In this document: positions 17,227-60,002 of the stretch, piece after piece | Numbering within the stretch: position 1 is the stretch's first letter | Layout: each line of letters begins with the position of its first letter | Assembly (NCBI GenBank): GCA_000733355.1 | Contig: JNVV01000026.1 | Coordinates: 451,077-515,076 of the forward strand | Length of the DNA stretch: 64,000 nucleotides | DNA from: Falciphora oryzae | Lineage: Eukaryota > Ascomycota > Sordariomycetes > Magnaporthales > Magnaporthaceae | Reading direction: 5' to 3' | Position numbers and translations under genes: made by a program | Notes under the pieces: model-generated | What the model was told of the DNA's origin: nothing | Database searches by the model: none | Seen by the model: the letters and a program-made list of their open reading frames with translations, nothing else

Positions 17227-20200
17227 CTAGAGGTGAATGTCACCCCCTTCGCCCGCGACCCATCTCCGCCAGGCTTCGTCGTAGGCGTCTTCTAGATCCC
17301 GAACCCAGCGCCGCGTGTCAAACAGCGCACAGGTCCACTTGCTCTCCCAGAGCAGCCGCCGCAGCTCGGCAAGCCGGCCCGAACCTTCGCCGTACCCGCC
17401 AGGCACGTTGAACCGGTACGAGAGCCCGTTGGCAAGTTTGACAGCCAGGTTCTCGTAATCGACGTCATCCTCGGCCACCAGCTCCGACGCGGCGCGTATG
17501 CCCTCCTCTGACTTGGGCAGTGCGCCCTTAAGGATCGAGGCGGCCATGCGGGAGCACATCTTGTACTCGTATCTCGGCAGCGTCAGAAGCGGTGTGCTGG
17601 ACCACAAGATGTCCGCTGCCGTGGTGTGCGCGTTGCACTCGGGTGTGTCCAGGAATAGGTCGCAGACTCGGGCCCGCGAAATGTGCTGTTGCTTGGGCGC
17701 AACATCGGTAAACAAGATGCGGTTGGCCACATGCTCGCCGGCCCACTCCTTGGCCGTTCGCTTCAGGTTGGTCTCGCCCAGGTCTGGGAAACGGAGGAGC
17801 CAAAGGATGGCCTTGGGAACCGCTGACAGGATGCGCAGCCACGCCCTGAAGGTCGTCGGATCGATCTGTGTAGTGTTTGTCGGTCAGTAATGAGCAGCTT
17901 TGCTATACATGTTATGTTAATCACAGACGACTCACCTTGTAGAGCTGGTTGAAGTTGCCGAGGATGATGGTATCGTCGGGCAGGTTGGGAAACAGCTCTT
18001 TGCGCATCTTCCACCGCCGTCGCTGCTCCTCCTCCCACGACATGTTCCGCTCGTCCTCGACATCGGCCGACTGCGCATGGTCGCAGCAGAAGAACGTGTC
18101 CCTGCAGTAGATGATGTTTTCCGAGTACACCCAATCGCCATTGTCGACATCTGCCTCGTCCTTGAACACATCCTGGAGGCTGAGGTTACCGCGCCACGGT
18201 CGAAGCGTCGAGGGCGGCACCGCGGTGGCGTCTGCAAGAAGGTAATCGCACCATTCCGCGCCGAGAGTGCCGGCGAAGCCCATAAATGACATCTGAATTG
18301 GTGCCGGGCGCGCTGCGAAGATCTCGTTCCGGGCCCCGCGTGTGTAGCCGTTGAGGTTAACCAGGATGTGAATGCCGTCTTGCACGATCTGGTCCACAAG
18401 CTTGTCCGAGGACCAGCTGCTCACGTCGCGGAACACGGGCGCTTCTCGCTCTATCTGCTGCCGATGAATCGACTTGTCGCTCGCCGTCGTCGCATAGCAG
18501 AACGCCTTGACGCGCGTCTGGTCGTGGAAGCCAAAGACGGACTGCATCAAATGTGCCAGCGGGTGGTTGTTGAAGTCCGACGAGAGATAGCCGACGTTCA
18601 GCTGTGGTTTGGGAGGAGCCGGTGGCGGATATACGGAGCTGGACAGCCAGGGGGCGCGAAGAGTCGAGCACGATATCCGGTGCGCGTTGCGCTGAGAGAT
18701 CATGCGGATGTCCTTGGCCGTCAAGGGGCAGGTGAAGGTGTGGAAGGGGAGGACGGTAGGCGCCGAGGGGATCGTGAGGCTGCCCGGCAGGCGAGGCCTG
18801 GGGTAGCCTCCCGCCGCCTCCTGGCCTTTCACATACTTGTCCAGGTACCACGTTCGCACCGCCGCCCGCGTGGCGCGCTCGATCAGGCGAATGATCCTCG
18901 AGCCCTCCCACGGTTGATCCGTCCACTTGCGCAGTTCGGCTTCCAGGTCGATCGAAGTGTTCGTCGGCTTCGCGCCCGAGTTGGTCAGCTGGGAGACGAG
19001 GAGCGCGATAGCAGTCTCTACGAGAGTGCCGGCGCCCCACGACGCCGACTCCTGGAGCTGGCGCCCGACGATGTCCACCACTCGCTTCATCAACCCGCTG
19101 CCCTGACCGCTATTCCTGACGTCTTGGAGCATTCCCTGCTCGTCAACGTGCCAACGGTCAAATTTTGCGCCGTACAGATATACGCCTCCTCTTCCCCTCC
19201 AGTCGCAAACCGAGTTCAGGGCCGTCGACAAGCCGCAGACGGCCTCGGCGAAGTCTGGGTTAGATGTTACGGCGCGCTTGTAGTACATGATAGCGTCGCT
19301 GATGCGGCCTCGGTCCTTAACCGCATTCGCCAGGTTGGTAAGCGCTATGTCGAACGTCCCGTCGCACGCCACGGCCCGTTCGTACATCTGGATGGCCATG
19401 TCGAGTTGCCCGATGTCCTTCAGGAGACTGCCCAGGTTCGTGTGGAGGTGGACGTGGTGAGGATCCAGGGTAAGGCCGTACTGGTAATAGAGCAGCGCCA
19501 GCTCGAGCCCGCTGCCGCGCACGATGCCGGGGATATTCTGCACAAGGGCCGCTGACTCTGGAGACAGGGGCTCGATCTGGGCCGCCGATTGTTGTACACT
19601 GGCAAGGAGAATTCCGACGTTGTTCGCTGTCGAGGGGCTCTCCTGAAGGGAAAGAGACAGGTAGTAGAGGGCGAGAATGTCACCAACGCCAGAGGCCTGT
19701 CCGCCTTGGCCCGGCGGCGTGCCACCTGTGGCCATGGAGTCCTGGAATATCTTGGCGAGCGAAAGCAGGGAGTTGCTAGTCGTGGAGATGGCTGACTTGC
19801 GATGGCTGCCCTCCCCGACATATCGGAGGCCAGGGAGTTGGGCGTTGGTCGAGCCAAATACGAACCGTGCCGTCAACTTAGCCCGGTCCGGTGGCAGGAG
19901 AAGCGGGCCCGACACCGGCCTGCGCACTAGAGCCCCGGTGGTTGAGGGCATGGCTGACTGGCTGGGTCTGGGCGACAGTACCGTCTGTATCTCGCGGATC
20001 AAGCTCTGTATCCCTCGACTTTGCCTGCCGGTGCTGATCATGACAACCTCCTCAAACGCCTCTGATGCGCGCTCGATGTCCTTTAGGGCATAGAGCATGT
20101 TACCTTTGGCGTGAATGAGTAGAAGCATGCGACCGTTCTCGTTGCCTGGGATCATGTAGCCGCTCGATCCGAATCCCGGCTGGTTCGACGCTTCTGCGAA

Positions 20201-22093
20201 GGATGATGACGACGGCAGGGTCTGAGAGACTGCGTCGCCCTGAGGCGGCTGGTGTTCGGGCATGCGAAGCCCCCGCTGAACGCGACTTATAATGTCCACG
20301 GCCTGCCTGCTGCGCTGGGTCGAGCAAAGCAGGCCCACCAGATGCTCGACGGCTTCAAGATACCCCGGTCGGAGGGTTACAGCCTCTACCCAATACCTCT
20401 CAGCCTCATCGTGCCTGTTCAGACAGTATAGGGTGGCAGCGATATTGGAGATGGCCTCGACATGACTTTTTCGGGTCACTGGGTTAGTATAAATCTCGGG
20501 GAGGAATAAGGCGGGAAATGGAGATGATCGGTACCTTGCGTCGAGGTTGGTGATCCTCTTGAACCAGTCCAGAGCCTCCTCGTAGCGTTCCAGGCCGTAG
20601 TGCAGACAGCCACCGAGCAACATCCCATCGACCCATTTCCACCCGCTCTGCTCGCACAAGTTGGTGAGCATCTCCAGAGACTGCCTAGCGCTGGATACCG
20701 GCGAGGGAAGCTCGGCCGGGTTTCCGCTCCCGGCACGGTACGTCTTGCCCGCATATGCATACTCGGCCTGGCCAGAAGGCCCGAAGGCCGACTCAGCACC
20801 GGCGAACGAGCCGTGGGGAGCGTGCATCGCCGCGGTACGGCGAAGAGGGCCCAATGACAGACCCAGCTGTTTGGGTGGCTTCGGAAATACGACCATCTTG
20901 GACAATGTCCGGAGACCAGACATGGTCTTCCCAGGAAGCGACTGCTTCGTATAACTGATATACACAAGGAGGTCGGCATATGTCTTGTGCGCGTGCGCAA
21001 GAACCCTCTCCTTGAACCGAGCAGGCGTTGACAGGTCGGAGCGCGAAGCGAGGCTGCCGGCCGGGCTGGCGGCAGCCGAGCCGTGCAGGGATAGTGATTC
21101 GAGTCCACCGCGGGGCAGCTGCATTACCGTCTGAGGTGGCCGGAGCACTCCATGGTCCGTGTCGAATCCGGGAATTGGGGCATGCATGGCGTGGCCCTGG
21201 ACAGGGCCGCCAAGCATCTGCTGGCCCATTGGGAGGGGGTGGTGCATGGAGTTCTGGGCTGGCATATATGCGGCGTCAAAGGCGGCATTCTGGGGGATAA
21301 AGCCTAAATTGGACAGGGGAACTTGGCCACGGTAATCTGACACTCCGGGGTCCTTCCACACGGGTGGAGGAGTGAATCCGGCTGGGTTGAAGGCGGTTGG
21401 GCCCATGGTATTATGCTGGTACGACGGCGTGAAGACGCCCTGAAGCCGTGGGTCGTAGCTGAACAGGTTCGACGGAGGTTGCTGGGGGGCCATAATCCTG
21501 TCCGGCAGCGGTGCGCCGTCAGGCTGTATGGACTGTCCCAAGTTCCATCCCGCCGGCTGGGTCTCGTATCCCCCACCGACCTGCTGCCCTGTGGGCGGGT
21601 ACTGCCAGCTGTTGTTAGCCAGGTGCAACTGGCCGTTGACTGCGTCGGCCAGTTGAAGGTTGTTCTGGACAAACGCGGTCGGGAAGATCTTGGGAGAGGC
21701 CGGGATGATCAGCTGCTTCTGCGGGGGCCCGATGGCCAGACCGGCGGGCGAGCCATCGTAGCCGGCGTCGATGGTCCCGCTAGGCGTCTTTCGTCGCAGC
21801 TGATGCTGGCTGTGATCGGGTTGTGCCTGGGGGTGGCTCTGAGCGAACGGCGATGCGCCGGGCGCGCGATAAGAGGACTGCTGCTGCTGCGATGGCTGAG
21901 CGGGCTGCGAACTCCGGATCGGGAATGGCCTGGAGCCGACGTTTGGGCCCGGGTAGGGGTTCGATGGCCTCGGGTGTCGGGACTGTTGACATAGTGCCAG
22001 GTATTCGGGTTTGATGTGGTTCGAGACGGGGAGGAGGTGCTCGAAGTGAGGAGGCGTGGGCACCATCGGGTGCATCTGCATTAAGGGCAACAT
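17227..22093 (-). CDS. O-GlcNAc transferase homologue (GT41, TPR-containing)
   Basis: Predicted UDP-GlcNAc:protein O-linked N-acetylglucosaminyltransferase, which modifies Ser/Thr of nuclear and cytosolic proteins. Exons are 22093-17936 and 17865-17227 (1598 aa), with a 70-nt intron. Residues 1 to about 400 are Pro/Gln-rich and probably disordered. TPR-like helices span roughly 480-940, including an EEALDWFKR repeat and a later ISDAIMYYKRAVTSNP repeat. The catalytic half follows: SSDFNNHP places the His equivalent to human H498 at residue 1177, then HILVNLNGYTRGARNE, then NFNQLYK|IDP with the lysine equivalent to human K842 at 1386, and CNAHTT near 1463-1468 for UDP binding. All key residues are present, so it looks active. 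Budding yeast lacks this enzyme, but filamentous fungi have it. The start is the first ATG of the frame; an AG acceptor 14 nt upstream suggests a 5'-UTR intron. Confidence 0.93.
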
Positions 22094-25000
22094 CGGGGAA
22101 GGGGTATCCTATGGCTGAAATCACAACAAAAAAAGACAAACTCGCGGATCACCCGGGGCGGGGAACGGGGCCGGCGGGCAGAGCGACAAGAGGGGCCGTC
22201 GAGAGGGCGGAGAGACGGGCTGGGACCGAGCCCGATGGCGTAAGAGAGAGAGAGGGAGAGTCGTTGCCTGCTGGTTAAAGCAAGGCCGAGGGGGCCTATC
22301 TTGTGATCATTTGGGCTTCGCAGCGGCGGGACGAAGCCGGCGCCAAAGACGAGCAGATGCGTTCCAGAGAGCCCAGCTGCCCAAACCGGGAGAGTCGTGG
22401 GGTCGTCACCGAGGCAGGAGGCGATGTGTTTGTTTGGGAGAGGATCAGGATCTAGCTGGGGGAGGCAGGCGAGAGAAAATTACGGGGATTGAATTCGTCC
22501 TAGCCGTCGGGAGCCGGTGCGAGGGCGACCAAAGCCACCCGCGGTGCCGTAGTTTTGGGGGCGCACGCCGGATCCTACGCCTCGCTCGCAGTTTCTTGCC
22601 GTTGGTTCGGATTCCAATGGCCTCGGGCGGCGACGGCGGCCTAGATAGCGTTGCTGCTTGGACGTCGCCGTTGCGTGCTGGGTCCGTCCAGGCCCCCTCG
22701 CGGGAAAAGCGGGCGGGGCTCGATGGGATGCGGCGCCTTCAATTTTTTTTTTTTTTCTCTAATTTTTTGTCCTTCGACTTCACTCGCTCCGTCGAAACGT
22801 CGATGGCGGGGATGGCGGAATGAGGTGGAAAAAGAGAGGCCCCGATCGGATGTGGATCGTCGGTTTGCGGTTCTGCGGACGGCAGCGGTAATTAACTGGA
22901 GTGACTGGAGCGGGTTTGAAAGGCTGGCCTCCCCACCACAGTGGGTGCCGGTGTTGCAGCGACGCACCACCAAAGGACAGCCCAGCAAGGTGCGTCGCCG
23001 GTGCAAAGTGGGCGGGTGGGCGAGTGGGCGAGTGGGTGGGTGATTGGGTTTTGCCAGGGACCAGGGGCTAGGGGAGGGAGGGGAATGCAGGGCACGTTGA
23101 CAGGGAACTCCGCTGTGACTGGCGGTGGGCTGGTGCCGCCGGGGGGGCGATTGGCCAGGGAAGCACTCCCACGGGCACCAAGCCGGGCATGGAAAACCGC
23201 AGATGGCGCTCTTGCGGCGCAGCTGAGGCGCTGGGGCAGACGGCCTGCGGACTCCCAAGAGGCGACCCGTGGTCAAAGGGTGGTGGGCGCCTGCAGGAAT
23301 AGCGTCGCTGCGACATGCACGCCAAGTACCGGTAATCCGCCCGTCCTGCCCTCCCTCGCCCAACACTCGTTCGAATCCTCGCTGCAGCCGCATGGAGCAC
23401 ACACATGGGCCTGATTGCGTGGCAGGGCTTGCTGACCTGACCTCTTGGCGCCCATTCCAGTCACTCGCTGTCAAACGGTACATATCTCAGGCGAGCCCAG
23501 CGAATGAGTCCAAAGGCTCAATCATGGCGCTGCTGGTTGGCCGCCGCTGCTGCCAGGGAGTGCATGGCCGTGGGTGCTTTCTGCTCTCACCTGCATCAAC
23601 GGTGCATGTCGCGGCAACATTAAAGACACCTGTCGGCACAACCTAGCCTAGTCTCTCCCGCCGCCCGGCTGCAGAGTCACCGCCCGTTCCCATCGTCAGC
23701 CGGCCCCTCAGTCAATCATTTCAAGGCGGCGACTCACACAGACTCCAATGAAATACAAACAACCCCCCACAACCTCCATCAAACTTAAATCCGCCTCTCT
23801 CCCACCAACGCACAGCGCACACCGTAGCCTCACACATGTCTTGCCTACGGGAGAAAAAAAAAACACAGCTTGGGGACGGCGCCTTTCGGGCGGTGGACAA
23901 TGGATGATCGACACGCAAGAGGTAAGACAAAGAGCCAGGCAGGGTCAAGCGGGCCAACAGGGTCGGGTCCAGAAACGGACTGAATGGGTTGCCATGTCAG
24001 CCCGTGTCTCAACTCTCAAGCCCACCCACCCTCCCACACGCAAGGAGCTCGACGCTACCCTCCCTCGGCCGCCTTAGTGGCTGCGTGCCGTCCATTCCAG
24101 CAAAGCCGCCAGTTGTCACCCGTCATCCTGGCCGGCCGCAGGTAACGGGTATTGTTTCCCCAAACGTAGAAAGAGACCCTCCATTGCGGGATATTGGAAA
24201 CACTTATGGGGCTGTGATGGTGGTGTGCGGGCGGGTGATATTTGATGTGGCGCCCGCCTGGCTGCCCGGGGTTGAATATCGCTTGCTTTGCTGATGAACA
24301 AAAGGTACTTTCTAGGCAAGGGAATGAGCCTAGGAACTAACGGGCCCGACGTCACCGGCTAGAAAAACTCCGCGATGCCCAGCTGTCTGAACCTTGCTGC
24401 CCAAGAAAAAGCGGATTGGGTAAAGAAACGCGGCAAGGAATATCAGCAATGAACGGCACAATCAAGATGCAAGCACGATACCAATCCAGATTAATTGATG
24501 TGACTGTGGCAGGACCGCCGCCGCTGCCCGCCGCCACTGCACACATCCCTCCCATCCACACTCGCTGTAACCGCTTGGCGCTGTTCGCCCGCCGTTTACC
24601 CTCGCCAGGGTCAAAGGGGCACTGCAGGGGGGTTAAAAAGGCACCCAACACCCGCCCAGTCTTTCTGCCTTCCGGTCCGAAAATTTTTCCATCCTCGGGG
24701 ATGGGGGACCGCTATCTAATCCTCCCACATGCAGTGTCCCGAAGAATGGCGAGTCCTCTCAAGGACATTTCTTTACTGCCTCTCCTTTCGTACGCCACCG
24801 TGGCTTGGCGGCTCACCTATGGGAGGCGGCGGCCCTGAAGTTCCGTGCATCAAAACACCGTATAAAAACCGCCGATAATAGAGATACGACGCTGGGCCGG
24901 GGTCCGTCCCTGGAGGACATGGCCGGGCGCTTCGGAGAAGTGGACATGCCTGCCGGAGGACCTTGCTGCTTCCGTAATCTTCCTTCTCATTCCCTTCAAG

Positions 25001-28186: not shown

Positions 28187-31100
28187 TCATTGGTATTTGC
28201 GAAGCTAGAGAGATTATCACGATTAGCAATTGAGAGAGGTCGTCAGGGAAAGGGGGGAAGCTCACATCAAGAGTTAGAGTCCGTGAACTGTTCACGTCCT
28301 GGTCTCGGTATACGCCGACAAGACTCTCGCTGTCCTGGAACAGTCCAGGCTTCAGGGAGATGACGATAAACTGCATGCCTGGCCCGGCGTGCTCGCGAAT
28401 GTATTTCTTGATCTTGTCGACGTTGGCATTGTCCAAGGCGGCGTCGACCTCGTCGAGCACGAAGAAAGGACTAGGCTGGTAGCTGTGGATCGCGAAGAGC
28501 AGCGCCATGGCGGCCATAGTCTTCTCGCCGCCGGACAAGTGGTCCATATCTCTGAAGCGCTTCAGCGGCGGCATGGCGTGATACTTGATGCCAGACAGAT
28601 ACGGCGTCTCGGTGTCCTCCTCCATGTCGAGATAGGCCTGGCCACCAATAGGGTAGGCCTCGGACCGGGTAAGCTCCTTGTAGACGTGTGTGATTTGTTG
28701 TTGGATGTGCTTGAACGCCTTGTCGAACAGCTCAAACCTCTTTGCCTTGACTTCGTTGAAGGCGTCCTGGGCGGAGTTCCAGGCGGCCTTGGACGTCTGG
28801 AACTCCTGTTCGACCTGCTTGAGGCGAGTCTCGACAGTCTCGAGTCGCTCGACGGCGCGCATGTTGGGGTTCGACTTCTCGAGTTCGGAGTTGAGGTCCG
28901 AGATCTTACGCTCGAGGATCTCCTCTACACCGTCCTCATCAGACTGTTCATGGTAATTGTCAGCTTGGTACATGCCCCCTCAAGTTGAACGTGAAATACT
29001 CACGTTCTTGTATTCCTCAGGCAGACCGTCGTAGTCAACCTCGATTCCATGATCGTCCATGGCGGCCTCCATCATGGCGTCGTCACCTTCATCCACGTCC
29101 ATGGCGTCCGCATCCGGGTTCAGAAGGTTGTCCTCATTGGGCAGATCGTCGAGCGAGCCGTGCTTCAGCGGTATCTGGATCTGCTCGATCTTGCATTTCC
29201 GCAGGAGCGAGAACTTGAGTGCACTGTTCTTCTGCACCTCCGTCTCCAGAGCATCGATCTCCTTTTGCCTCGCGTCGATTTCTTTGCTTCTGCTCTGCAC
29301 CTCGGCCCTCGCTTCTTGGACCTTGGCAACCTTGCGCTGGTGGTCCTCCTTGACTTCTTCGAGAGCTTCCTGCAGGGCGGTCAGCTCATCGCGCAGGCTT
29401 TCCAGGTTCTCGTTGACGGTTGCCTCCTGCTGCCTGTAGTTCTCGATATCTCTCTGGAGGCGCTCGAGCGTCTCCTGTAGGTCGTGCAACCTCTTCTCCG
29501 TATTGCTCAGTCGGTTTGTCTCGAAGCTGAGGGCAGAAGTCACCCGCTGTTTCTGGACCTCGAACTTGTTACGTTCTGCCGCAGCCTGAGACTCCAGGCT
29601 ACCCTTCTGCGCCTCGTACTCGCGGATATCCGTGTACCCGAGCCTCTGGCAAAAGCTGCCGAAGATGGCGTCTTCGACAGCGGCTATAGCGTCCTTGAAC
29701 TGTGCGAGTTTCTGTCGCGACTGCTCCAGTTCACCGGATTTTTCCTCGAACTTGGACCGCCATTTTCCGTACTCGCTCTCGGCATTGTCCAGCTCTTTGC
29801 GCTTGCTCTCCAGATTTTTGCGGAGCGCGTTGAGCTCTGCTCGATCATTCTTGAGAGCCCGCTCGAGCATGGAGAGTTCTTCCCTGATGTAGTCGGTATC
29901 GCGCAACTCCGAGTCACGACGCCGCAGCTCCTCGAGTTGGTTCTGGAACTCCCTGACCATCTCTTGAAGGTGCTGAACATCTTGCTCGTCGAACCGGCGC
30001 CTGCCCCCCTTGTTATTGTCGTTCGAGCGACCGCCCGTCATCAGACCGCCCTTGTGGATGAGCTTGCCGTCCAGCGTCACGGCTTTGACAGCGAATTTCT
30101 CGTCATAGCAGATCGTCTTGGCGATATCAAAGGTGTCGCACACGATAGAGCTACCACAGGCGTATGCCATGGCACGCTCGACGGACGGGTCGAAATCGAT
30201 GGTGTCGATCACCAGACGAACGCCGGGCTTGCCCTTGAGAGCCGAGAAGGGAGTGGTTGCCTTGATGTTGTCCAGGGGGATGAAGTGCATGCGGGGCAAC
30301 CGTTGCTTCTTGAGGTAGTCCAGACATTCGTCAACCACCTTGTTGGTTTCGACCACAATGGTATCAAAGTCGTGACCTAGGGCTGTGTCGACAGCTTCGG
30401 TGTATTTCTTCTGCTTGGGCTTGCAGAGCTCGCCGACCCGGCCCTTCACACCGGGGTAGAGCTGCTTCAGCCTAGCCAGGGTCTCCTTCCTGTCCCTCTC
30501 CTTAGCACTCTGATGTCTGCCCGCCGTAGCCTCTGAGAGCTTCGCCGCAGCCTGCTGGAGCTTCTCCTCAATCTCGGTGCGCGACTGCCGGATTCTCGTC
30601 TTCTCCGATTGCGAAGTGTTGAAGGCCTTCTTCTTCTCTTCGATCTCGGTGGCCCGTTCACGCTCCGAAATTTGCAGCGATTCCGCCGTCTTCTCGATGG
30701 ATTTCACCTCCGCCTGCAGCTTCTCCACCACCGAGCCTGAGACATCGACTTTGCTCTGGAGGCTGTTGAATGTTACCTCGTCGCCTTTGAGCTGTCTGGC
30801 AAGCTGCTCCATCTTGACCTTGTTCTCGGCAACCTTGGCGTCGGCTTGGCGCCGTAGTGTGTCGTATTCTTTTCGGTCGGCCTCGCTCAGTTCCTTGCCT
30901 TGGTGCTTGAGCTTCTCTTTCCACTGCGCCTCGAAAAGCTTCTCGTCCTTCTCCACCTTGGCCAGCTCCCTTGTGTGCTTCTGGACCGCCTCAGCCTGCT
31001 CGTCGCGCACCTTGGTCAGGTTCTCAAGGTGTTTATTCCGAACCTCGGCGCTGTTGACGCTCTCCCGAACCTTGGTCTGGATTGGGATTAGGCTATTCTC

Positions 31101-32243
31101 CTCGTCCTCGATCTGCTTCTCCTTCTCCTTGATTGTCCTTTCGATCTTGCCCGCCTTGCGGCCAACAGTCGCCTGATCCTTCATGGCGGCTTCCAGCTGT
31201 TTTTGAAAGGTATCCATATTGCGTCGAAATTCCTTGAGGTTCTCGTGGTGTTCCTGGATTTTGTCATTCGAGTCGTCCATGATACGCTGGTAGTGGTATA
31301 GCCTCCAGAGGATCTGCATCACTATGGCCTCGTCCCGCTCCTCGGTTTTCTTTTGAAATTCCTCGGCCTCCCTTTTCTGCTCCTGGTACTGTTTTATTTC
31401 CGAGTTGATGCCCCGCCTCCGATGGAGCATGAACGCCTGGTTCTCCGAAGCCTGCTCTAGGTCCGCCTTGAGCCTCTCGTACTCGGCCTTGTACTCGAGA
31501 CTGCCGGAGATCTGCTCGATGAGGCGAGTGAGGTCTTGGGGCGACTGGGCGGCAATGGCCTCGACGTCGCCCTGGAAGACGAGGAAGTTGCGGGCCTTGA
31601 TCAGAATGTTCTCGTCCTCGAGGGCCTGGTTGTACGCCTGGGAGGTTACGACGCGGTCGTTGATGCGGTACTCGCTGGTTCCCTGGTTCGTGATGGATCG
31701 TTTCCACCTCTGTTCGTCACCTGCGTCGTCCTCGTACACGGCCATGACCCACGCGGTCTTGGGGTCGCCTCGCGACGCCCGCGAGGACTCGTCACCACCG
31801 TTCTGGGCGCCATTGGAGTGGCCGTTGGTCTCTGGTGTTCCTGCGGAGCCGTCCTCTTTGATCTTGGACGTCTTCATGACACGGCCACGGTAGACGAGGT
31901 CTTTCAGGTGGGTCGACCGCAGGTGGCTCGATTTGATGCCCAGCACGAAGGAGATGGCGTCCATCCTAGAGTCGCGTCAGCACCGCAAGGTCGAAGCAAT
32001 GATGCGAGGCAAGACAGAAGAGGGGGTATCGCAAGTTTGCGCCTTACGAGTTGGATTTGCCCGAGCCATTGGGTCCGATGATGGATGTGAAGTACGAATC
32101 ACCAAAAAGGAGTGTGTGGTGGCCCTTGTAGGACTTGAAGTCTATTGCGCCAGATCAGCGCGTGCCGTTCCGCAGTCGAGGGCAGAGCTGGGAGGGAGAG
32201 GGGACGGCCTACTGGAGAGCTCCAACCGAAGCAGTTTCCCCAT
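28187..32243 (-). CDS. SMC1: Structural maintenance of chromosomes protein 1 (cohesin Smc1)
   Basis: ATPase subunit of cohesin, pairing with Smc3 and closed by the kleisin to hold sister chromatids together. Exons are 32243-32213, 32141-32048, 31965-29004, 28943-28266 and 28204-28187 (1260 aa, normal for Smc1). The N-terminus reads MGKLLRLELSNFKSYKG, and Walker A GPNGSGKS is at 33-40. Long coiled coils flank a hinge at about 535-690, which contains YPGVKGRVGELC and GGLMTGG. The C-terminal head has the ABC signature LSGGEK at 1165-1170 and Walker B VLDEVDAALD, with the catalytic D1193-E1194 pair. All ATPase motifs are intact. The end is LRKYQ, encoded by an 18-nt last exon. The order of head, coil and hinge plus the YPGVKGRV hinge fits Smc1 rather than Smc3 or condensin SMCs. 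Confidence 0.95.
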
Positions 32244-33701
32244 CTTGCAGATTCTGGTCGCGCCAGGACGCGACGACGACGGGGAGACGCGTAGGCTGCC
32301 CAGGCGAAGGGGTAGTTGGACTATTTGCGCAATAAGCGCCTCGAGATGGTGGACGTAGAGCCTCGGACGGAGGCGATCACGTTAAACTAGAGAGTTGGGC
32401 GGCGGAGTGGTCAGGAGCCGCCGTGTCGCATTTCGGTTGTTGGAGGCGCGCGATCGAGCGACCCAGAATTTACAATTTACGCGACGCCATCTCGTGGTTC
32501 GGCTTAGTTGGAGGGGAACAGCACCCATGCCTGCTACCCACTGGCAAGGGGGTGCCCCAGTTTGGTAGGTGTGGCTGCGACCAGCTCGATCAGCTGTGGC
32601 TGGTGGCACAGACTGATGAACGTGCACGCGTTGAGAAGCCACATCTGTTGTGCAGGGGCCAGCCACTCCCTCACGCAATTCTCAAACACGTCGCGGAAGA
32701 ACAGTGGAACAAAGTGGGTGCATATGTCATTTGTGGGGCCAACGTCGGGATGTGCAAGTTGGCTGAGATGGGAAAGTTGAGATGCTTCCGTTTTCAGCAC
32801 TTCGATCTCATTGAAGCCTGGTGCTCCCAGCATGCTGCCGCTGAAGGGTCATCTCCGCCATGCCAGGTAGAGGCCACACAATCCAAGTTTGGGAGCATAA
32901 AGTCATGAAGTCTGCTAAACAGGCGGGGTGGTCTCACGAATGACTCTGCACAGGATTCTGCCTTCTGCGGCTCGTCCAACCAGAGTGCAGTCCAGGGACA
33001 CGCCCTGAGGAGCTGGGCTAGGGGGCGTCTGAGTCGCACTAGCACCTGCATATCAACGTCAACACCGCCCGAGGCCAAACGACGGCCTTGTGACGAAGCA
33101 CCAGACGTGTGTGGCCCTCCCTCCTTCCAACTCTTTTGCGTCACCTGGCCTTCTAGCTTCCCATAGCACCTGGTCCTGCTTTGCTGTCTTGGTCCCCTTC
33201 CCAATAGCCGCGCACGCTGGCACGACAAGGCTGTGCTCCTGTGAACTCGCTCTCGCCATCGAGGACTTCGACCCCTAAACTCGTCTCGATACCGACTGTC
33301 ACCTGGCACACCGACCTCCGGCTGCACCCCCACCTTCCGACCTCGAACCGTCTCACAAGCCTGAGCTGATCTTATACGGCGGACTCCCTCGACACACCTC
33401 GGTCGGCCTTTTCTCCTGGCTGCGCATATCCTCAACAAAGGCCCCTACTGCCTACTTCATTTCAAAGGTGCTCTCTTGGCGGGCCCAGACGCTTGCGTCG
33501 TTCCCCGCTGGTTTTCTTTGTACCATCAAGGTGCCCATTTTTGCCTGGTAGGTATGACATCCGTCCAGAATCACCTTGGCTGCATAGCATTTAAGACGAA
33601 CCTTCCAGGACTTCTTTATCTAACACCGTTACTTCGACCATCCCAATCTCACTAGCCGCTCCCCCAGCCCAGCACCAAACTCCAGACCACAGCCGTCAAA
33701 G
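32244..33701. other. Divergent promoter region, SMC1 and GPC1
   Basis: About 1.46 kb between the divergent starts of SMC1 (leftward) and the Gpc1-like gene (rightward). The last 250 nt before 33702 are pyrimidine-rich, as usual for fungal leaders. No further ORF or RNA gene is supported. Confidence 0.55.
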
Positions 33702-35351
33702 ATGTCAGAACCAGATCCGAAGCCGGCACCGATCCCCAAATCCAAATCGACAAGCACTCTGACCGACAGCGAGCACATAATGACGCCTGACGAAGGCGCC
33801 ACGTCGCAAGGGTCGTCCTCGCCGCGCGAGCGCGCTGAGAGCAACGCCGCCCCCATGCTCCCCGAGACCCCGACGCTCGGGGCGACGACGCCCAAGAGCC
33901 CACGCCTGTCGCGCAACCCGTCCTTCTCGGGCAGCAGTTCGTACCAGGAGGACTGGGAGGCGCTGCCGCCGCTCGACCGTCTGACCGTGCTCGACCTGCT
34001 CGACAACTTCGCGTTCCCGCAGCAGCTCGAGCTGCAGTTGGGCAAGATCCAGAAGGGAATCTCCAAGTCGCGGCAGGCCCTCCGCGCGAGGGGACAGGTA
34101 GCGCGCGAGCGCATGGTGGAGGAGTGGCGCCAGCGCGTGCCCTCGGCCGACGAGCAGCTGGAACGGTACCGCAAGCGCATGCGCACGAGCGTCGAGAAGC
34201 TGGGTCGCCAGTGGAACGACACAAAGGCCGTGACGGCGCGCGAGAAGGTCTCGTTCATCTGCGGCGTCATGAACATTTTCATCAGTGGCTACCTCATCGG
34301 TGGCTTCCCTGAGTGGATGCCGCTGTGGTACACGGCCCAGGTGCTCTACTTCCTGCCCATCCGCTTCGTTACCTACCATCGCCGTGGTTATCACTACTTC
34401 CTCGCCGACCTTTGCTACTTCGTCAACTTCCTCCTGCTCCTGAGCATCTGGGTCTTCCCGAATTCCAAGCGCCTCTTCACGGCCGTCTACTGCCTCGCCT
34501 TTGGTAACAACGCCGTCGCCATCGTCATGTGGCGCAATTCGCTCGTCTTCCACAGCTTCGACAAGGTCACCTCGCTCTTCATCCACATCATGCCCTGCGC
34601 CACCCTGCACTGCATTGTCCACCTGGTCGACATGGCCTACCAGGAGGCCCGCTTCCCGGCTATCTATCAGGTCAAGCACTCACCCAAGGGCTCCCCGACC
34701 GCCTACGCCAACGTCATCTCCATGTTGGCCTGGTCCACCATCCCATACGCCTTCTGGCAGCTGTCATACTACTTCTTCATCACGGTCCGCCGCCGCGACA
34801 AGATCGCCGCCGGCCGCCCCACCTCCTTCACCTGGCTGCGCAAGTCCTACTCAAAGACCTGGATCGGCCGCATCGTCCTGGCCCTGCCCGATGTGCTGCA
34901 GGAACCCGCCTTCATGATGATCCAGTATTCGTACGCCGTCCTGACTATGCTGCCCTGTCCCGTCTGGTTCTACAGCCGGTGGGCCTCGGCCGCCTTCCTC
35001 ATCTTCGTCTTCGCCTGGAGTGTCCACAACGGCGCCACCTATTACATCGACGTCTTTGGCAAACGCTTCCAGAAGGAGCTCGAGGCCATGAAGGCCGAGG
35101 TCTCAAAGTGGCAGAGCCACTCAGAGTCTCTGGCCAGCCCGCCTCTCGGGCCCGTCCATGACGGCGCCAGCAGCATCGGCGGCGACGCAGACGACGCCGA
35201 GTTCGAGTCGGCCACGCCCTCGGGTGACGGCGCCAAGAAGGCCGTCCACGACGCCATCAACGTCATTCCTCTACTCAGTAGCGAGGACGAGATCTCTGCA
35301 ACAGGGGTCGACAGTGGGGCCAGGGACGTCGCCAGAGAACGGAAACAATGA
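33702..35351 (+). CDS. GPC1: Glycerophosphocholine acyltransferase (Gpc1-like, DUF2838)
   Basis: Probable acyl-CoA:glycero-3-phosphocholine acyltransferase, which turns glycerophosphocholine into lysophosphatidylcholine for phosphatidylcholine remodelling in the endomembrane. This is a single exon of 549 aa. Residues 1-80 are Ser/Pro-rich and low complexity. At about 80-180 comes a charged helical segment with REKVSFICGVMNIF at its end. About 183-450 is a multi-pass membrane domain containing the family hallmarks TYHRRGYHYFLADLCYF, FGNNAVAIVMWRNSLVFHS and a histidine-bearing IHIMPCATLHCIVH. The C-terminal tail is hydrophilic. Family assignment rests on these conserved blocks; no ortholog search was possible. 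The start ATG follows a CT-rich leader and is the first in frame. It is convergent with the microexon gene, whose stop lies about 320 nt away. Confidence 0.9.
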   Translation: MSEPDPKPAPIPKSKSTSTLTDSEHIMTPDEGATSQGSSSPRERAESNAAPMLPETPTLGATTPKSPRLSRNPSFSGSSSYQEDWEALPPLDRLTVLDLLDNFAFPQQLELQLGKIQKGISKSRQALRARGQVARERMVEEWRQRVPSADEQLERYRKRMRTSVEKLGRQWNDTKAVTAREKVSFICGVMNIFISGYLIGGFPEWMPLWYTAQVLYFLPIRFVTYHRRGYHYFLADLCYFVNFLLLLSIWVFPNSKRLFTAVYCLAFGNNAVAIVMWRNSLVFHSFDKVTSLFIHIMPCATLHCIVHLVDMAYQEARFPAIYQVKHSPKGSPTAYANVISMLAWSTIPYAFWQLSYYFFITVRRRDKIAAGRPTSFTWLRKSYSKTWIGRIVLALPDVLQEPAFMMIQYSYAVLTMLPCPVWFYSRWASAAFLIFVFAWSVHNGATYYIDVFGKRFQKELEAMKAEVSKWQSHSESLASPPLGPVHDGASSIGGDADDAEFESATPSGDGAKKAVHDAINVIPLLSSEDEISATGVDSGARDVARERKQ

Positions 35352-35672
35352 AGGATATGACTGGTTTGTTTTCTTTTTCTCTATTTTCGACGTCACGGCC
35401 ACTCAAGATATCCATGCTCTTTTTGGCGTCTCTGGTTCTGTTAGCATGTTATCTTGGCTTTGCACATGAATGTTCTCGTTTTTGGGGGTCGTTCAGACGG
35501 CCCGCTCTCATAATGGATTTTATGGTCCGCTGGAGTGATGACGACTGCCCACGTCTGCCCTCCCTCAGCCCGCACCTACCAAGTTTCCATCATCGAAATC
35601 ATCTAAATGTATGATATTTGTAGTTAGTATCAGGACAGCATTTTTGTATTCCCGAAGAAAGACCAGATGCAC
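35352..35672. other. Convergent 3' region
   Basis: About 320 nt between the stop of the Gpc1-like gene and the stop of the leftward microexon gene. It contains a minus-strand TACTAAC branch site and TTTAG acceptor (acceptor end at 35603), which would serve an optional last intron of the microexon gene. Confidence 0.6.
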
Positions 35673-37553
35673 TTACTCCTGCTGCGACTGCTGCTGCTGC
35701 TGCTCCTTCTCCTCCTTCTTCTTCTTCTCTTCCTCCTCCCTCTCCCGGTCCATCTCCTCTTCCTCCTCCAGGAACTGCCTCATGTTAGCAACACCTCATC
35801 GCAAACCATACTGCATATCAGTTAGTTACCTGGCGTTGGAGCCTGCATCTCTGTCACAGGACATGGTGTCAGACTGATGGGGTCTTCAAGTCTGCTATGA
35901 TAGCGAGCAAATGCACATACGGCCGCTTCGTTGGCGGCCTCCTAATCAACATTTAGTCACAAACATCGTCAGGAAATGGGATAAAAAAATAATAATAATA
36001 AGACAGGAAATACTAACCAGTATCTGGACCTCAAGTTCCTATCGAGCCGGTATCCTTGTGGTTAACATTGGTTTCTTTGTAAATACAACACCGCGCCACA
36101 TAGAACGGTCTTTACCTCTTTCTTCATTTCATAAAACTTCGTGACGAGAGCACGAAGGATATGGCTGTTAGTAGCACTCTGACTAGATATCTGGAACGTT
36201 TACTCACGGCAATCCGTCTTGCGTGCTTCTGTAAAAAGACGCATTAGCATTACATCTCGGAAACGCTAAGAGTAGTTTATTTTAATGGGAGAAGGTGAGT
36301 ATGGTGTTTGGGAAGGATCCAAGGTCATCTGAGGCAACTATAAAGAAATGAAGCCGCAGGAAGAGAGGCCGGAATGGGGAAAAGTGAAATAGAAGTCGAG
36401 AGGCACTGGTTCAAAGTGCTCACTGGAAGGGGGAGAGAGAAAAAGAGAGCTACTTACCGCAGCCAGTCTCTCGTGGTGGAGCTATGGGTATGGACACAAA
36501 TCAGTCAGGAATGTGATTATGTTTAAGAAGAGACTGGGGTGGCACTTACAGCCATCTGCCTACAGAACTCCTGGCACGAAGAAAGTGTAAGTGTTAGCAC
36601 GAGCACCGCTTTTTCCCTGCAACAATATGGATGCTTGTACCACGGCGCCAAGAACCTAAGCGACAACGTGGATTTGTTAGTCAATTTAACGCGGGCCAAC
36701 GGACAGGAAAAGCGGAGGAGAGAGGATAATGTCGTTTACGTTGATGTCAGGGGTCTATAAAACCACCAATGCGTGTGCGGTCAGCAACGGTAAATCCACC
36801 TCGCAAAGACAGTGGCTAGAAGAGGGACCGTCTCCGTATCGAAGGAGGAAGCGGGTGATAGGGAAGCAGAACGAGAGCACGAACGTCCGACGGCATTTCT
36901 GCGAACTAGATAGCATATGTCAGCGCCGAGTACAAGAACAAGAGAAGAGTCACGGCAGACAGTTCGCTCCAGTGGATGATATATACTTCTTGTTTAAGTT
37001 GGTAGTCTTTCAGAGGCAAGTAGGTTAGCTCGAGTGTCGGTGTACTCAAACTGTTAGAGAAAGGAGAGACAAGTTGAAAAGGGAATAGAGGGGAGGGCGG
37101 TGAAAGGACAGTGGAAGGAGGGCAGAAGGAGGGCGGTTGAATGAGGGTAAAGCTCAAGATATAGACAATATATAGGGCCAAATGTCGAGCTGGCATCAAA
37201 AGAGTGAACCCGCTGTTGGAGATGTACGTGCTGTTTGATGGTTTGTGGTCTAATAGGCAAATAGCATCGTGTTAGCTAGGTGGCCATCGAGGTACAAGCA
37301 GAAACCAGGAGCAATCATCCGAGAGGGAAGACTATCAGACCAGGGGGAACGTACGGCTCCGCAATTGTGGTGTCTGCATCAATTGTGCTGCCGGTTAGCG
37401 ATCTAAACGCCTAAAAAGAGCAACCAATGTCGACACGGCGGCGCTTGGAAAAGGGGAAAGGGGCATGGGGTTGCGCGCGAAGGGTATACGTACAGCGATG
37501 GTATCAGGTGGTGCCAAGGAAAAAAGAAGAGAAGAAAGGAAAGGAAAATTCAT
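35673..37553 (-). CDS. 15-exon microexon gene, 155-aa predicted protein, unknown family
   Basis: I do not recognise this gene. Exons: 37553-37494, 37373-37355, 37249-37228, 37050-36987, 36905-36885, 36754-36740, 36655-36641, 36570-36550, 36481-36458, 36228-36208, 36136-36116, 36038-36018, 35941-35921, 35850-35830, 35774-35673. All 14 introns (55-229 nt) have GT...AG ends and nearly all have a visible CTAAC/CTGAC-type branch site. Phases agree throughout: the first four exons sum to 165 nt, and the next ten are all multiples of three (seven of 21 nt, two of 15, one of 24). The predicted protein starts MNFPFLSSLLFSLAPP, a possible signal peptide or hydrophobic leader. Its second half is rich in Glu, Arg, Lys and Ala (for example KHARRIA, FYEMKKE), and it ends in a Glu/Lys/Gln-rich tail, probably helical. 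The ATG is the only one after an in-frame TGA. Weakest points are exon 4's acceptor, which has no clear branch site, and the N-terminus. A secreted coiled-coil protein is possible, but function is unknown. Confidence 0.72.
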
Positions 37554-40338: not shown

Positions 40339-42331
40339 ATGGGTGCCATCTCGGATGCTCTCGCCGGCAACGGCCTGGCATCCTCATCGAAACGCCCCGT
40401 CAGAGACTCGCGCAGTCCTGCCATCGCGACACCTGCCAGGAGCACCACCCCGCCCCCAGCTTCAGACCGCGCTCGCTTGGAGGCCAGGCATCATTTTGAT
40501 CCTAGCGGCTCACGCAGCTCGCGGGGCAGTGCACGGGCGAGCGACGTGGGTATTGGCAGGGAAAGCAGCCTGGATTCAGATGCGGTAAACCATGCTCTCA
40601 GGAGGGAGATGCTGAGCAGGCAGCAGAGGGAAACTACGCCAAACGGAAGCCCGCACAGGAAACGCCAGCGGATAAATGGTGACAGGTGAGCCTCACGTCC
40701 AGCCCCGGACGCGTCGGTGCCGCCCGGGCGGAATGGATCGGGCAATCGGCCATGCTCACACGTTTGCCATTCAGATTTATCCCGACCCGATCAGGTCAGG
40801 ACTTGCAGGCGGGCTTCAGTTTGTTGCACGAGGATGGCTCCCCGGCGACCCCGTCCAAACAAAAGAAGCGTACTCCGCACGGCGAGCTTCATTTCCAGAA
40901 GAGTAGGCACCCCTTTTCGGCACCCTTTGGCCCAATGCTATGGATCTGGCACGGTTGCTGACATCACCTTTAGCCGAGGAGGCAAACCGCACCTTCTCGA
41001 CCCTGCTGCGGGCCGAGCTTTTTGAGAACTCGATCCCACAGGCAGCTCCCGCACCAATAGACCACACCATTCCATCATCGAGGGGGTCCAATGTGCACGA
41101 TGGCACCAGAGCACAAACACCTCCCCACAACCCCCCGCCATCACTCCCTGCCTCATTAACCCCCTCAACCCCCCACAAGAACCTGTTCTCGTATATGTCT
41201 CCCCGCCACAACAGTATCGGCGGGCATCCGACACCATCACGGACACCACAGAGCCGACATGGCCCCAACCTGGACACCAGGTCTGAAATTTACAGCCTCT
41301 CTCCCGTTCGGTTTGGCAGCCAGCAGATGCTCTTGAGCCCCCGCCGGCAACCAAGAGCCGTCAGCAAGGTGCCTTATAAAGTGTTGGACGCACCAGAACT
41401 AGCCGACGATTTCTATCTGAACCTTGTCGACTGGGGAAGTGCCAACGTGCTTGGAGTGGGCCTCGGTTCCAGCGTGTACATGTGGAACGCGCAAACGAGT
41501 CGCGTCAACAAGCTGTGCACCCTAGAGGACGACACGGTGACCAGCGTATCCTGGATCCAGAAGGGCACGCACATCGCCATCGGCACCGGCAAGGGCCTCG
41601 TGCAAATATGGGACGCAGAGAAGACTCGGCGGTTGAGGACGATGACCGGACACACCGCTAGGGTCGGCTCTCTGGCCTGGAACACACACATCCTGACCTC
41701 GGGCTCCCGCGATCGCCTCATCTACCACCGTGACGTCAGGGCGCCCGACCAATGGCTCCGGAAGCTCGTCGGCCACAAGCAAGAAGTCTGTGGTCTGAAG
41801 TGGAATTGCGAAGACGGGCAGCTGGCGAGTGGAGGCAACGACAACAAGCTGATGGTGTGGGACAAGCTCTCGGACACGCCACTCTGGAAGTTTTCAGATC
41901 ATACTGCCGCAGTCAAGGCGATGGCCTGGTCTCCCCATCAGCGGGGACTGCTGGCATCTGGCGGTGGTACCGCTGACCGGCGCATCATCTTTCACGACAC
42001 TTTGCGAGGCACCGTCATCAACGAGATCGACACGGGAAGCCAGGTTTGCAATCTGGCCTGGTCTAAGAACTCGAACGAAATCGTGTCGACGCACGGCTAT
42101 TCCCAGAACCAAATTGTGGTCTGGAAGTACCCCTCGATGACCCAAGTCGCCAGCCTGACGGGTCACACCTACCGAGTGCTCTATTTGGCCATGAGCCCAG
42201 ACGGACGCACCGTGGTCACTGGCGCTGGCGACGAAACTCTACGGTTCTGGAATGTCTTCGGTCGACGGCCCGGGGCCCGCGAAGACGGCGAAAGCGGAGG
42301 ACGGCTATCTGACTGGGGCATCATTCGGTGA
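40339..42331 (+). CDS. CDH1: APC/C activator Cdh1/Hct1 (fizzy-related, WD40)
   Basis: Substrate-recruiting activator of the anaphase-promoting complex in late mitosis and G1. Exons are 40339-40685, 40775-40902 and 40974-42331 (610 aa). The C-box DRFIPTR falls at 115-121 across the first intron. The N-terminus is Ser/Pro-rich with many SP/TP sites, as expected for CDK control. A WD40 propeller runs from VPYKVLDAP (about residue 290) to the end. It includes SRDRLIYHRDVRAP and CGLKWN, and ends GHTYRVLYLAMSPDG, typical of the fizzy family. The last two residues are Ile-Arg, the tail that binds TPR subunits of the complex. SRDRLIYHRDVR and the lack of a Cdc20-type N-terminus favour Cdh1 over Cdc20. 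A meiosis-specific paralogue is less likely but not excluded. The frame is open upstream of 40339 without another ATG. Confidence 0.94.
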
Positions 42332-57748: not shown

Positions 57749-60002
57749 ATGGCGGCACAAGTAACATACGTCGAGAACGTAAGTCAACAGCGACCCCAAC
57801 AACCCCTTGCAGGACAAACTGTTGCTAAAAAGTCTTTGTTTCTGTCGAATTCAGCTCCAGAAGTACCTGAAGCTGGACCAGAAGGGCTCCATCATCGCCG
57901 AATATGTCTGGATCGACAGCGAGGGTGGTGTTCGCTCCAAGTCAAGGGTGAGTTGCGAATCTTGAGCCCTTGAGCCTCTTTCCCTCTACGTTTTCCTTCG
58001 GTCCTACACGCACGCGACACTCTTCTCGAAAAAAAAATTGCACACATCTTCCCTCTTGGCTTTCCAGTGGGGGGAGTAGCCAGGGGAACGCGCGCCCTGT
58101 CGGTCACATCAGGCACGCACCGGTGGAGCGCGAGCCTCCTCCCCCAGCCCGCATGGGCCCTTTGGGCTGCCGTGATGCTTGACGACCCTCCAGGGCCCTC
58201 CCCGAGATGGGAAAGTTCTCTGTTGGTGGCTTTGTCCCCCTGCCTTCCGCTTTAGTTTGGCGGCGGCGCCTCCGAGCCAGGAAGCCCCGCGACTCGGGCT
58301 GGCTGCGCTGCACGCAGCCCGGAAAGTCTAGCCCCTTTCGTGGGCCCCGACATTGCCCGCTCCAAGGTTTCTGCTGTCAGTGGAAAGGGGCAAAAGGGCA
58401 AAGAAGAAGAATGGAACGTGGAATCCGCCGCTCAGCACGGAGTCCCGATTTCATCCTATTCCATTACCTAAAAGACCCCACTCCACTCCGTCATTCTGCC
58501 TCAAGCTTTGGCCCGAAGCAGCGGCTTGTTCGTCCGGTTCGGGCCTACACCCTGGTTCGTCCCTTTGGGCCGACGAAGAGCGAAGCAACACAAGACAACA
58601 CGACGTTTTTTTTTTTTTTTTTTTTCTCTCTCGCGGTTGGCGGGCCGAGGGTCGTTGCGTCGTCGTCTGGTCGTGTGTTGCGCGGCGGCGGCGGCACCGC
58701 ACCCACACTTGCCAAGAACGGCCGCGGCCCAGTGGCCTGCGTGCTTGCCCGTGCTTGCACGAACCTGGATGTGCTTTGCATGGCCGCCCGTCCTCTGGGA
58801 TTGATTCGCGAACAATTCCATCGACTCCCAGTTCCCCACCCCATCATTCTTCCCGCTGCTATGCAACCCACCACCATCACCGCCACATCTCGATTCATCA
58901 TGATTGAGGGTACCCACATTTATCTTCCCGCATTGCACACGCACACACGTGCTAACCACACCCAACCCCCCAATGCCAGACCCTGAAGGAGGCCAACTAC
59001 GAGCCCAAGGACCTGCCGACATGGAACTTTGACGGCTCGTCGACGGGCCAGGCGCCCGGCGACAACTCGGACGTGTTCCTCAAGCCCGTCGCCGTGTTCC
59101 CGGACCCGTTCCGCGGCTCGCCCAACATCATCGTCCTGGCCGAATGCTGGAACCCGGACGGCACCCCCAACAAGTTCAACTACCGCGATGAGGCCGCCAA
59201 GCTCATGGCCGCCCACGCCGAACACGAGCCCTGGTTCGGCCTCGAGCAGGAGTACACCCTGCTCGACATGGAGGACAGGCCCTACGGCTGGCCCAAGGGC
59301 GGCTTCCCCGCCCCGCAGGGCCCCTACTACTGCGGCGTCGGCACCGGCAAGGTCGTCCAGAGGGACATCGTCGAGGCCCACTACAAGGCCTGCCTGTACG
59401 CCGGCGTCAAGATCTCGGGCACCAACGCCGAGGTCATGCCCGCCCAGTGGGAGTTCCAGGTCGGCCCCTGCGTCGGTATTGAGAGTAGGTTTTCTTCTCC
59501 CCATGTCTCCCCTCCCTTCTCCCCTAAAGTCCACCCGACACTAACAAAAACCTATTCAGTGGGTGACCACCTCTGGATCGCCCGCTTCCTCCTGCACCGC
59601 GTGGCCGAGGAGTTCGGCGCCAAGGTCTCGTTCGACCCCAAGCCGATCCCGGGCGACTGGAACGGCGCGGGCCTGCACAGCAACTTCTCGACCAAGGAGA
59701 TGCGCGTCGAGGGCGGCATGACCCACATCGAGGCCGCCATCAAGAAGCTCGAGGGCCGCCACGCCGAGCACATCGCCGTCTACGGCGAGGGCAACGAGAA
59801 GCGCCTGACCGGCCGCCACGAGACGGGCGCCATCGACCAGTTCTCGTACGGCGTCGCCAACCGCGGCGCCTCCATCCGCATCCCCCGCGAGTGCGCCGCA
59901 AAGGGCTACGGCTACTTCGAGGACAGGCGCCCGGCCTCCAACGCCGACCCCTACCAGATCACCGGCATCCTCATGGAGACCATCTTTGGCGCCGTCAACT
60001 AA
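57749..60002 (+). CDS. GLN1: Glutamine synthetase, type II
   Basis: ATP-dependent ligation of ammonium to glutamate, the central step of nitrogen assimilation; a cytosolic decamer in eukaryotes. Exons are 57749-57778, 57855-57947, 58980-59484 and 59560-60002 (356 aa, normal length). After [10 protein letters not shown] come [38 protein letters not shown] with active-site glutamates, and [12 protein letters not shown]. The ATP-grasp signature [19 protein letters not shown] is at about 237-255, and the [10 protein letters not shown] block with catalytic arginines follows. All expected catalytic residues are visible. Intron 2 is 1032 nt, far longer than any other intron here, yet its ends (GTGAGT...GCTAACC...CCAG) are standard. 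The 3' UTR starts with a T24 run only ten bases after the stop. Confidence 0.97.
57948..58979 (+). other. 1032-nt intron 2 of glutamine synthetase
   Basis: Flanked by coding exons that join exactly (SKSR then [10 protein letters not shown]). It contains a T20 run (58606-58625). No protein-like frame or RNA gene is recognised inside. Other introns in this window are 52-229 nt. Confidence 0.9.

Follow-up and report, generated by a model that had tools for sequence, protein, structure and literature searches.

The window analyzed here is the whole stretch of 64,000 nucleotides C26:451077-515076 from a Falciphora oryzae genome assembly of 50.18 Mb in 123 contigs. On its minus strand, between a GPC1 acyltransferase gene (33624-35351, plus strand; named by eye from its translation and also by PF10998) and a Cdh1/Fizzy-like WD40 gene (40907-42331, plus strand; named by eye from its translation), lies a chain of very small exons that probably belongs to an unannotated gene. 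A DNA-level search of the organism's own genome matched the locus only to itself, indicating a single copy. Three ordinary neighbors were also recognized by eye from their translations: an OGT-like TPR protein (17921-22108, minus strand), an SMC1-like cohesin subunit (28980-31976, minus strand) and a glutamine synthetase (58956-60002, plus strand).

Ten minus-strand microexons of 21, 15, 15, 21, 24, 21, 21, 21, 21 and 21 nt, all in phase 0, share one open frame with a last exon of 102 nt that is likewise in phase 0, just as a sequence-only reading of this DNA had described for exons 5 to 15 of its model. The array opens with a probable start-codon exon, (FAE)MPSD (36885-36905), which was picked by the splice-chain search, contains an ATG at 36896-36894 and marks the point from which the codon score becomes positive; with the alternative acceptor at 36898 this exon shrinks to 14 nt and still retains the ATG. 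Two 15-nt exons follow, TPDIN (36740-36754) and VLGAV (36641-36655, with the weak donor GTACAA), both supported by splice-signal scores and chain searches. Splice scores, a frame-free chain and the heptad register described below all support the 21-nt exons EFCRQMA (36550-36570), KHARRIA (36208-36228, after an intron of 229 nt), ELEVQIL (36018-36038), EAANEAA (35921-35941) and RCRLQRQ (35830-35850), while the 24-nt exon LHHERLAA (36458-36481), a heptad plus one residue, is supported by splice scores and the frame-free chain. The 21-nt exon FYEMKKE (36116-36136) has a weak acceptor (ACGAAG) and a weak donor (GTAAAG), and was placed by splice scores, chain searches and the heptad register. The acceptor choice proposed in front of it, by which a site directly after TACTAAC is passed over for one 28 nt later that alone keeps 21 nt and the frame, was reproduced. 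GTACAA, GTAAAG and GTAAAC are the low-scoring donors of the chain, and nine of the ten introns measure 55-130 nt, the exception being the one of 229 nt. The last coding exon, FLEEEEEMDRE...QQE plus stop (35673-35774), was assigned by its open frame and codon usage and encodes a charged tail rich in E, K and Q. A probable 3' intron of 74 nt (35603-35676, minus strand; GTAAGT...TACTAAC...TTTAG) was visible in the sequence and was picked by the gene-model search; its donor overlaps the stop codon (GA|GTAAGT), and the protein ends in QQE with or without splicing.

In order to judge how unusual this chain is, donors, branch sites and acceptors were scored with a generic fungal weight matrix, and chains of 12-30-nt exons were compared with a background of 672 windows of 1.4 kb, drawn from both strands of 264 kb of the same genome after windows with N were dropped. 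The target was the top microexon chain of the 672 windows at every length from three to nine exons, with an 8-exon score of 128.4 vs 88.8 for the best off-target window, and none of 1000 dinucleotide shuffles matched it at any chain length from one to nine. The array is thus more than chance would give, in line with the earlier judgment that so many matching phases are unlikely to be accidental. A frame-free search, in which frame and stop codons were ignored and exons of 9-40 nt were allowed, returned 15, 15, 21, 24, 21, 21, 21 and 21 nt as the best 8-exon chain, and eight of the best nine exons were divisible by three. Frame-free chains of 9-12 exons came to include the start exon in its 14-nt form as well as 20- and 22-nt exons farther upstream, none of these a multiple of three in length, and took up FYEMKKE only at 12 exons. 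In the frame-aware search, a different frame that omits FYEMKKE won until the chain had 12 exons, or 10 if the start was set at 37000. Codon usage over the 67 array codons amounted to +13.1 bits in the frame originally read, against -17.4 and -26.7 bits in the other two, and although 349 of 5000 base shuffles of the array were open, none scored as well on codon usage.

A genome-wide pattern consisting of a CTAAC branch site, an acceptor, 14-26 nt and a strong donor had 95 matches vs 174 for a reversed control, so microexons are not abundant genome-wide, and a general microexon excess in this genome was ruled out. Several of the 95 matches had clean 21-nt exons, and three loci proved to be arrays, all on the plus strand: L022 (C22:120400-122900), L023 (C14:595200-598600) and L024 (C22:21300-23700). 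Six of the 95 matches fall in the four arrays. The number of array genes is at least four, as 27 of the 95 matches were covered and the search needs an exon with strong signals. In stretches of 2.4-3.4 kb and under a donor limit looser than that of the 672-window scan, the 8-exon scores were 141.9 for L022, 148.7 for L023 and 115.9 for L024, the weakest of the four arrays, compared to 125.8 for the target under the same looser limit. Scores at 21 other loci around pattern matches reached up to 95.2 at eight exons (L043; among the best 22 rows), and the best chains of three, four or six exons at these loci held at most two exons of 21 nt. One of them, L030, scored 66.5 at four exons (24, 26, 27 and 30 nt) vs 63.3 for L024. 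Both L030 and L043 (21, 16, 22 and 28 nt) are minus-strand chains of mixed exon size and are perhaps ordinary intron-rich genes.

In frame-free searches, 9 of the best nine exons at L022, 8 at L023 and 8 at L024 had lengths divisible by three; of the best 12 exons, 9 at the target, 9 at L022, 11 at L023 and 11 at L024 did. The best background chains had a mean of 2.1 of six exons divisible by three (132 windows), and one background window that scored 98.5 at six exons, about as high as the target and L024, had none of six. Gene models built with codon usage, the N- and C-terminal parts of which are uncertain, consist of exons that are mostly in phase 0, with one 25/38 pair off phase in L022. 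Together they contain 43 microexons, leaving out longer exons, 9-nt exons and off-frame exons: 29 of 21 nt, eight of 15, four of 18, one of 24 and one of 12. L022 and L023 are single copy at the DNA level, and the six 5-kb flanks of L022-L024 contained no 21-nt array; one chain there exceeded the threshold of 70, with 78.6 at five exons (20, 12, 17, 17 and 17 nt; L053). In pairwise comparison, the four proteins resemble one another little or no more than noise would (p 0.009 to 0.40), which does not establish common descent.

Each of the additional loci has features of its own. The 18-exon model of L022 (1-2501) has an Ala/Lys/Glu-rich last exon after the array, in which the stop codon overlaps a donor (GAG TGA = GA|GTGAGC), like that of the target. 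L023 (500-2850), the locus with the top splice-chain score of the four, has N-terminal low-complexity polyAsn exons and carries a KRKLD stretch that resembles a nuclear signal. At L024 (400-1760), the succession HAAAV (15 nt)-EHQAMMA (21 nt) resembles VLGAV (15 nt)-EFCRQMA (21 nt) of the target in sizes and residues, with a whole-protein p of 0.05.

The proteins themselves share a register. In 27 exons of 21 nt from the four genes, strongly hydrophobic residues (VILMFYWC) occupy residue 2 in 16 exons and residue 6 likewise in 16, compared with 3, 1, 3, 7 and 5 at the other positions, and none of 5000 within-exon permutations reached this residue 2/6 count, without alanine, even with the pair of positions left free. 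Counting alanine, residues 2 and 6 had 17 and 20 vs 3, 7, 8, 7 and 14 (0 of 20000 permutations). By our own choice these counts omit FAEMPSD and RHGPAVP; across all 29 exons, with alanine counted, the values are 18 and 21 vs 4, 7, 9, 8 and 14. The spacing from residue 2 to residue 6 to the next residue 2 is 4-3, as for the d and a positions of a coiled coil. The profile was flat in 128 decoy exons of 21 nt taken from 200 kb, and among 20000 samples of 27 decoys two reached the count without alanine and none with it. As a rough yardstick, a stretch of coiled coil in the neighboring SMC1-like protein attains at most 0.38 in one register, vs 0.59 in the exons. The register is strongest in the frame used (the other two frames of the 27 exons gave p 0.059 and 0.001), although a positional bias of some degree is present in another frame as well. 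The pair of residues 2 and 6 is the best pair in L022-L024 and holds at 9 of 12 places in the target.

Individually, the genes say less. The six 21-nt exons of the target give p 0.03 with the pair given and 0.44 with the pair free, no helical periodicity was detected across the whole target protein alone (p 0.71), and L024 alone is weak (6 of 10 places, p 0.09). The heptad reading is nonetheless stronger than it would be from the target alone, because three more loci share its register. This common residue 2/6 register in four genes argues that one exon corresponds to one heptad, which bears out the original suggestion of one seven-residue helical unit per 21-nt exon.

We therefore think it likely that the locus is a real, unannotated gene for an intracellular coiled-coil protein of about 97 residues, made from 11 coding exons separated by 10 short introns and held in a fixed heptad register, and that at least three other genes of this kind, dispersed and divergent in sequence, lie elsewhere in the genome. 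Database searches were silent on the protein. Two protein searches (~5.8 billion sequences; candidates of 80-256 and 41-131 residues) returned 0 homologues of the target, none of the four proteins had a Pfam match above cut-off, and the target had no NCBIfam or PDB match. A non-coding RNA family was rejected as a candidate, with one sub-threshold Rfam match (E 0.59). The same type of protein search with the adjacent GPC1 returned 1621 relatives, with 97% identity to one unnamed protein, 87% to Pyricularia sp. CBS 133598 and at most 82% to the remaining named records in the best 120 of the 1621. The genome and viral contig collections were also searched for contaminant contigs bearing GPC1 as a source of comparative DNA, and contained none.

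These searches bear on the most serious competitor, an ordinary, conserved small coiled-coil subunit that has very many introns in this organism and whose few-exon relatives were missed. The loci are single copy and dispersed and the composition is helix-forming, as such a subunit would be, and the protein search registers a sequence only if it has three 5-residue words in common with the query and falls within the limited candidate lengths, so distant or differently modeled relatives would escape it. Nevertheless, 0 homologues vs 1621 for the neighboring GPC1 (87% in Pyricularia), the same exon size in four genes and the lack of any Pfam match above cut-off make this explanation an unlikely one, though it deserves more weight than the others that follow.

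The 5' end bears on the second alternative. The sequence-only reading had extended the gene upstream to a fifteen-exon model of 155 aa with a hydrophobic leader, and had compared it with the secreted proteins of schistosome MEG and aphid bicycle genes. Exons 5-15 of that model stand as described; for exons 1-4, similar signals are present, but the exact 155 aa could not be rebuilt and the codon scores are negative. In bits per codon, exon 1 scores -0.64, exon 2 -0.11 and exons 3 and 4 together -0.36, vs +0.33 for the array, and these negative upstream scores agree under a second choice of background. The first three array exons score +0.43, compared with -0.40 for a different frame upstream whose Met start is hydrophobic. 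All four upstream regions lie on the minus strand. That of exon 4 (36987-37006; splice search and codon score) may be a 5' UTR exon, its coding being unsupported; that of exon 3 (37228-37249; splice search and codon score) has splice signals, and neither it nor the regions of exon 2 (37355-37410) and of the leader, exon 1 (37494-37553), both judged by codon score, is supported as coding. The hydrophobic leader is thus unsupported, its candidate exons scoring as non-coding. Because the upstream codon scores are negative and an in-frame ATG is present in the 36905-36885 exon, we favor a model in which translation probably starts at this ATG (MPSD), giving 97 residues, a 5' UTR and no leader. A TATATAT at 37174-37168, followed by a pyrimidine tract, may represent a promoter, which it resembles.

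A microexon-encoded, secreted protein that has a hydrophobic leader, varies in length and works like the MEG or bicycle proteins would account for the symmetrical microexons of 15-24 nt, and the frame can indeed be extended upstream to hydrophobic Met starts. Its leader exons have negative codon scores, a measure that is fallible, since one exon pair in the L022 model also scores -0.14 bits per codon, and the MPSD start needs no leader. Phase 0, short introns and the heptad register are further points against it, and we consider such a protein improbable. The proposed kinship loses its support along with the leader, and MEG intron length and bicycle exon phase do not match either. Still less probable is a spliced non-coding transcript in which the open frame is incidental. 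The absence of homologous proteins, and the fact that splice signals alone carry the chain, would suit such a transcript, but four genes with exons divisible by three, a codon bias and a register that is strongest in one frame all point to coding. Least credible of all is a chance chain assembled from the many GT/AG pairs of any 2 kb, weak donors included, given that 0 of 1000 shuffles matched it, that it topped 672 windows and that three more loci are of the same make.

Under the coiled-coil reading that we prefer, each 21-nt exon would contribute one heptad, with residue 2 at d and residue 6 at a, so that an exon would run c-d-e-f-g-a-b. Fungal introns are short, and their ends are considered to pair across the intron. 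The introns of the target, mostly 55-130 nt, may likewise be recognized by intron definition, which would leave exon size free to be tiny. Intron retention would break the frame at all 10 introns of the target, which agrees with constitutive splicing no less than with programmed length variants; in the L022-L024 arrays, 1 of 21 introns could stay in frame without a stop. If expressed, as we expect, the exons would presumably be joined constitutively into a helical rod with a charged tail, which may pair with itself or with a partner. Since the exons are in phase 0 and mostly one heptad long, a heptad exon gained, lost or skipped would lengthen or shorten the rod while keeping frame and register. 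Fibrillar collagen genes, which are large and specify a triple helix, are built from 54- and 45-bp exons of Gly-X-Y triplets. As in those genes, exon length here is a whole number of repeat units, in frame; unlike in collagen, the product would be a coiled coil. Intron definition has been studied in S. pombe, in work that PMC11121469 cites.

Symmetrical microexon arrays are already known from schistosomes and aphids, and codon-sized microexons from a receptor family of Tuber. The original assertion that no fungal family had been described in this way was too strong, given what is in print on Tuber nank and Phanerochaete P450 microexons, although the accounts cited here mention neither 21-nt nor heptad exons. 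The NACHT-ANK (nank) genes of Tuber melanosporum have multiple, even tens of, codon-sized and alternatively spliced microexons (PMC4986451, PMC3689799, PMC10197012, citing Iotti et al. 2012). They resemble the present genes in being a group of fungal genes with tens of microexons, where in-frame length change is possible, and differ in that their exons of 3 bp build large NLR-type receptors, whereas here exons of mostly 21 nt build small proteins with no known domain; with Pfam, neither NACHT nor ankyrin domains came out above cut-off in any of the four proteins. Microexons also occur in P450 genes of Phanerochaete (PMC1184071) and in Xlr2 of Trichoderma virens, where a 20-nt switch microexon was overlooked by annotation (PMC11121469); the latter paper claims that functional microexons were previously undescribed in filamentous fungi. 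These are microexons of filamentous fungi too, but one or a few of them lie in genes of ordinary enzymes or regulators and do not form arrays of one size.

Among animals, schistosome MEGs have short exons that are mostly multiples of three, most commonly 15 bp, and that are hard to annotate automatically (PMC10526429). The target is like them in having many short exons, most of them divisible by three. MEG introns measure 100 to almost 5000 bp, unlike the 55-130 nt and single 229 nt of the target, where the commonest exon is 21 nt, and MEGs carry a signal peptide (PMC10526429), whereas the candidate leader exons of the target score as non-coding. Aphid bicycle genes, which encode putative gall effectors, average ~17 exons, with small internal exons nearly all in phase 2 (PMC9168663). 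Shared with the target are small internal exons of one phase, and bicycle proteins are likewise too divergent for sequence search and were found by gene structure; in contrast to their phase 2 and secretion, the target has phase 0 and no supported leader. Troponin T (TNNT3) is a heptad-repeat protein whose gene contains consecutive alternatively spliced exons, all of one phase class (PMC2447309), but this is an animal muscle gene with its heptad domain in 3' exons, and here there is one heptad per exon. Our search of open-licence papers found no array in which an exon equals a coiled-coil heptad and no arrays of 21-nt exons.

We hypothesize, tentatively and with rather less conviction than we hold for the gene itself, that these loci belong to a fungal class of genes, and a lineage of coiled-coil proteins, in which exon and heptad are one unit: rods would grow or shrink by entire heptads in evolution, and splicing may regulate their length in the same steps. 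Standard annotation would not see such a class, which could be widespread among the Pezizomycotina. Because a very large protein collection contains no form of the protein that has words in common with the model, fungal proteomes may be without a class of coiled-coil proteins. If exon and heptad are equal, the way in which introns and protein repeats arrive at one length could be tested directly, and the array would also test the minimum exon size that fungal splicing handles in series.

As for how the array arose, tandem duplication of exon-intron units received no clear support, the best unit pair scoring 26 vs 17-24 in 20 shuffle sets. Exon identity within the target is raised in its mean (p 0.0045) but not clearly in its maximum (p 0.18), and the heptad register can account for the signal in the mean. 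Introner-type gain was likewise rejected, as a genome search for copies of the introns returned the locus only. The best intron pair within the target scored 26 vs 17-23 in 20 shuffle sets, which was due to one 13-nt match. The same 13 bases (TTCGTGCTCTCGT) occur on the minus strand at 36883-36871 and 36156-36144, one copy near the start of intron 1 and the other in intron 6, downstream of the skipped acceptor and upstream of the used one.
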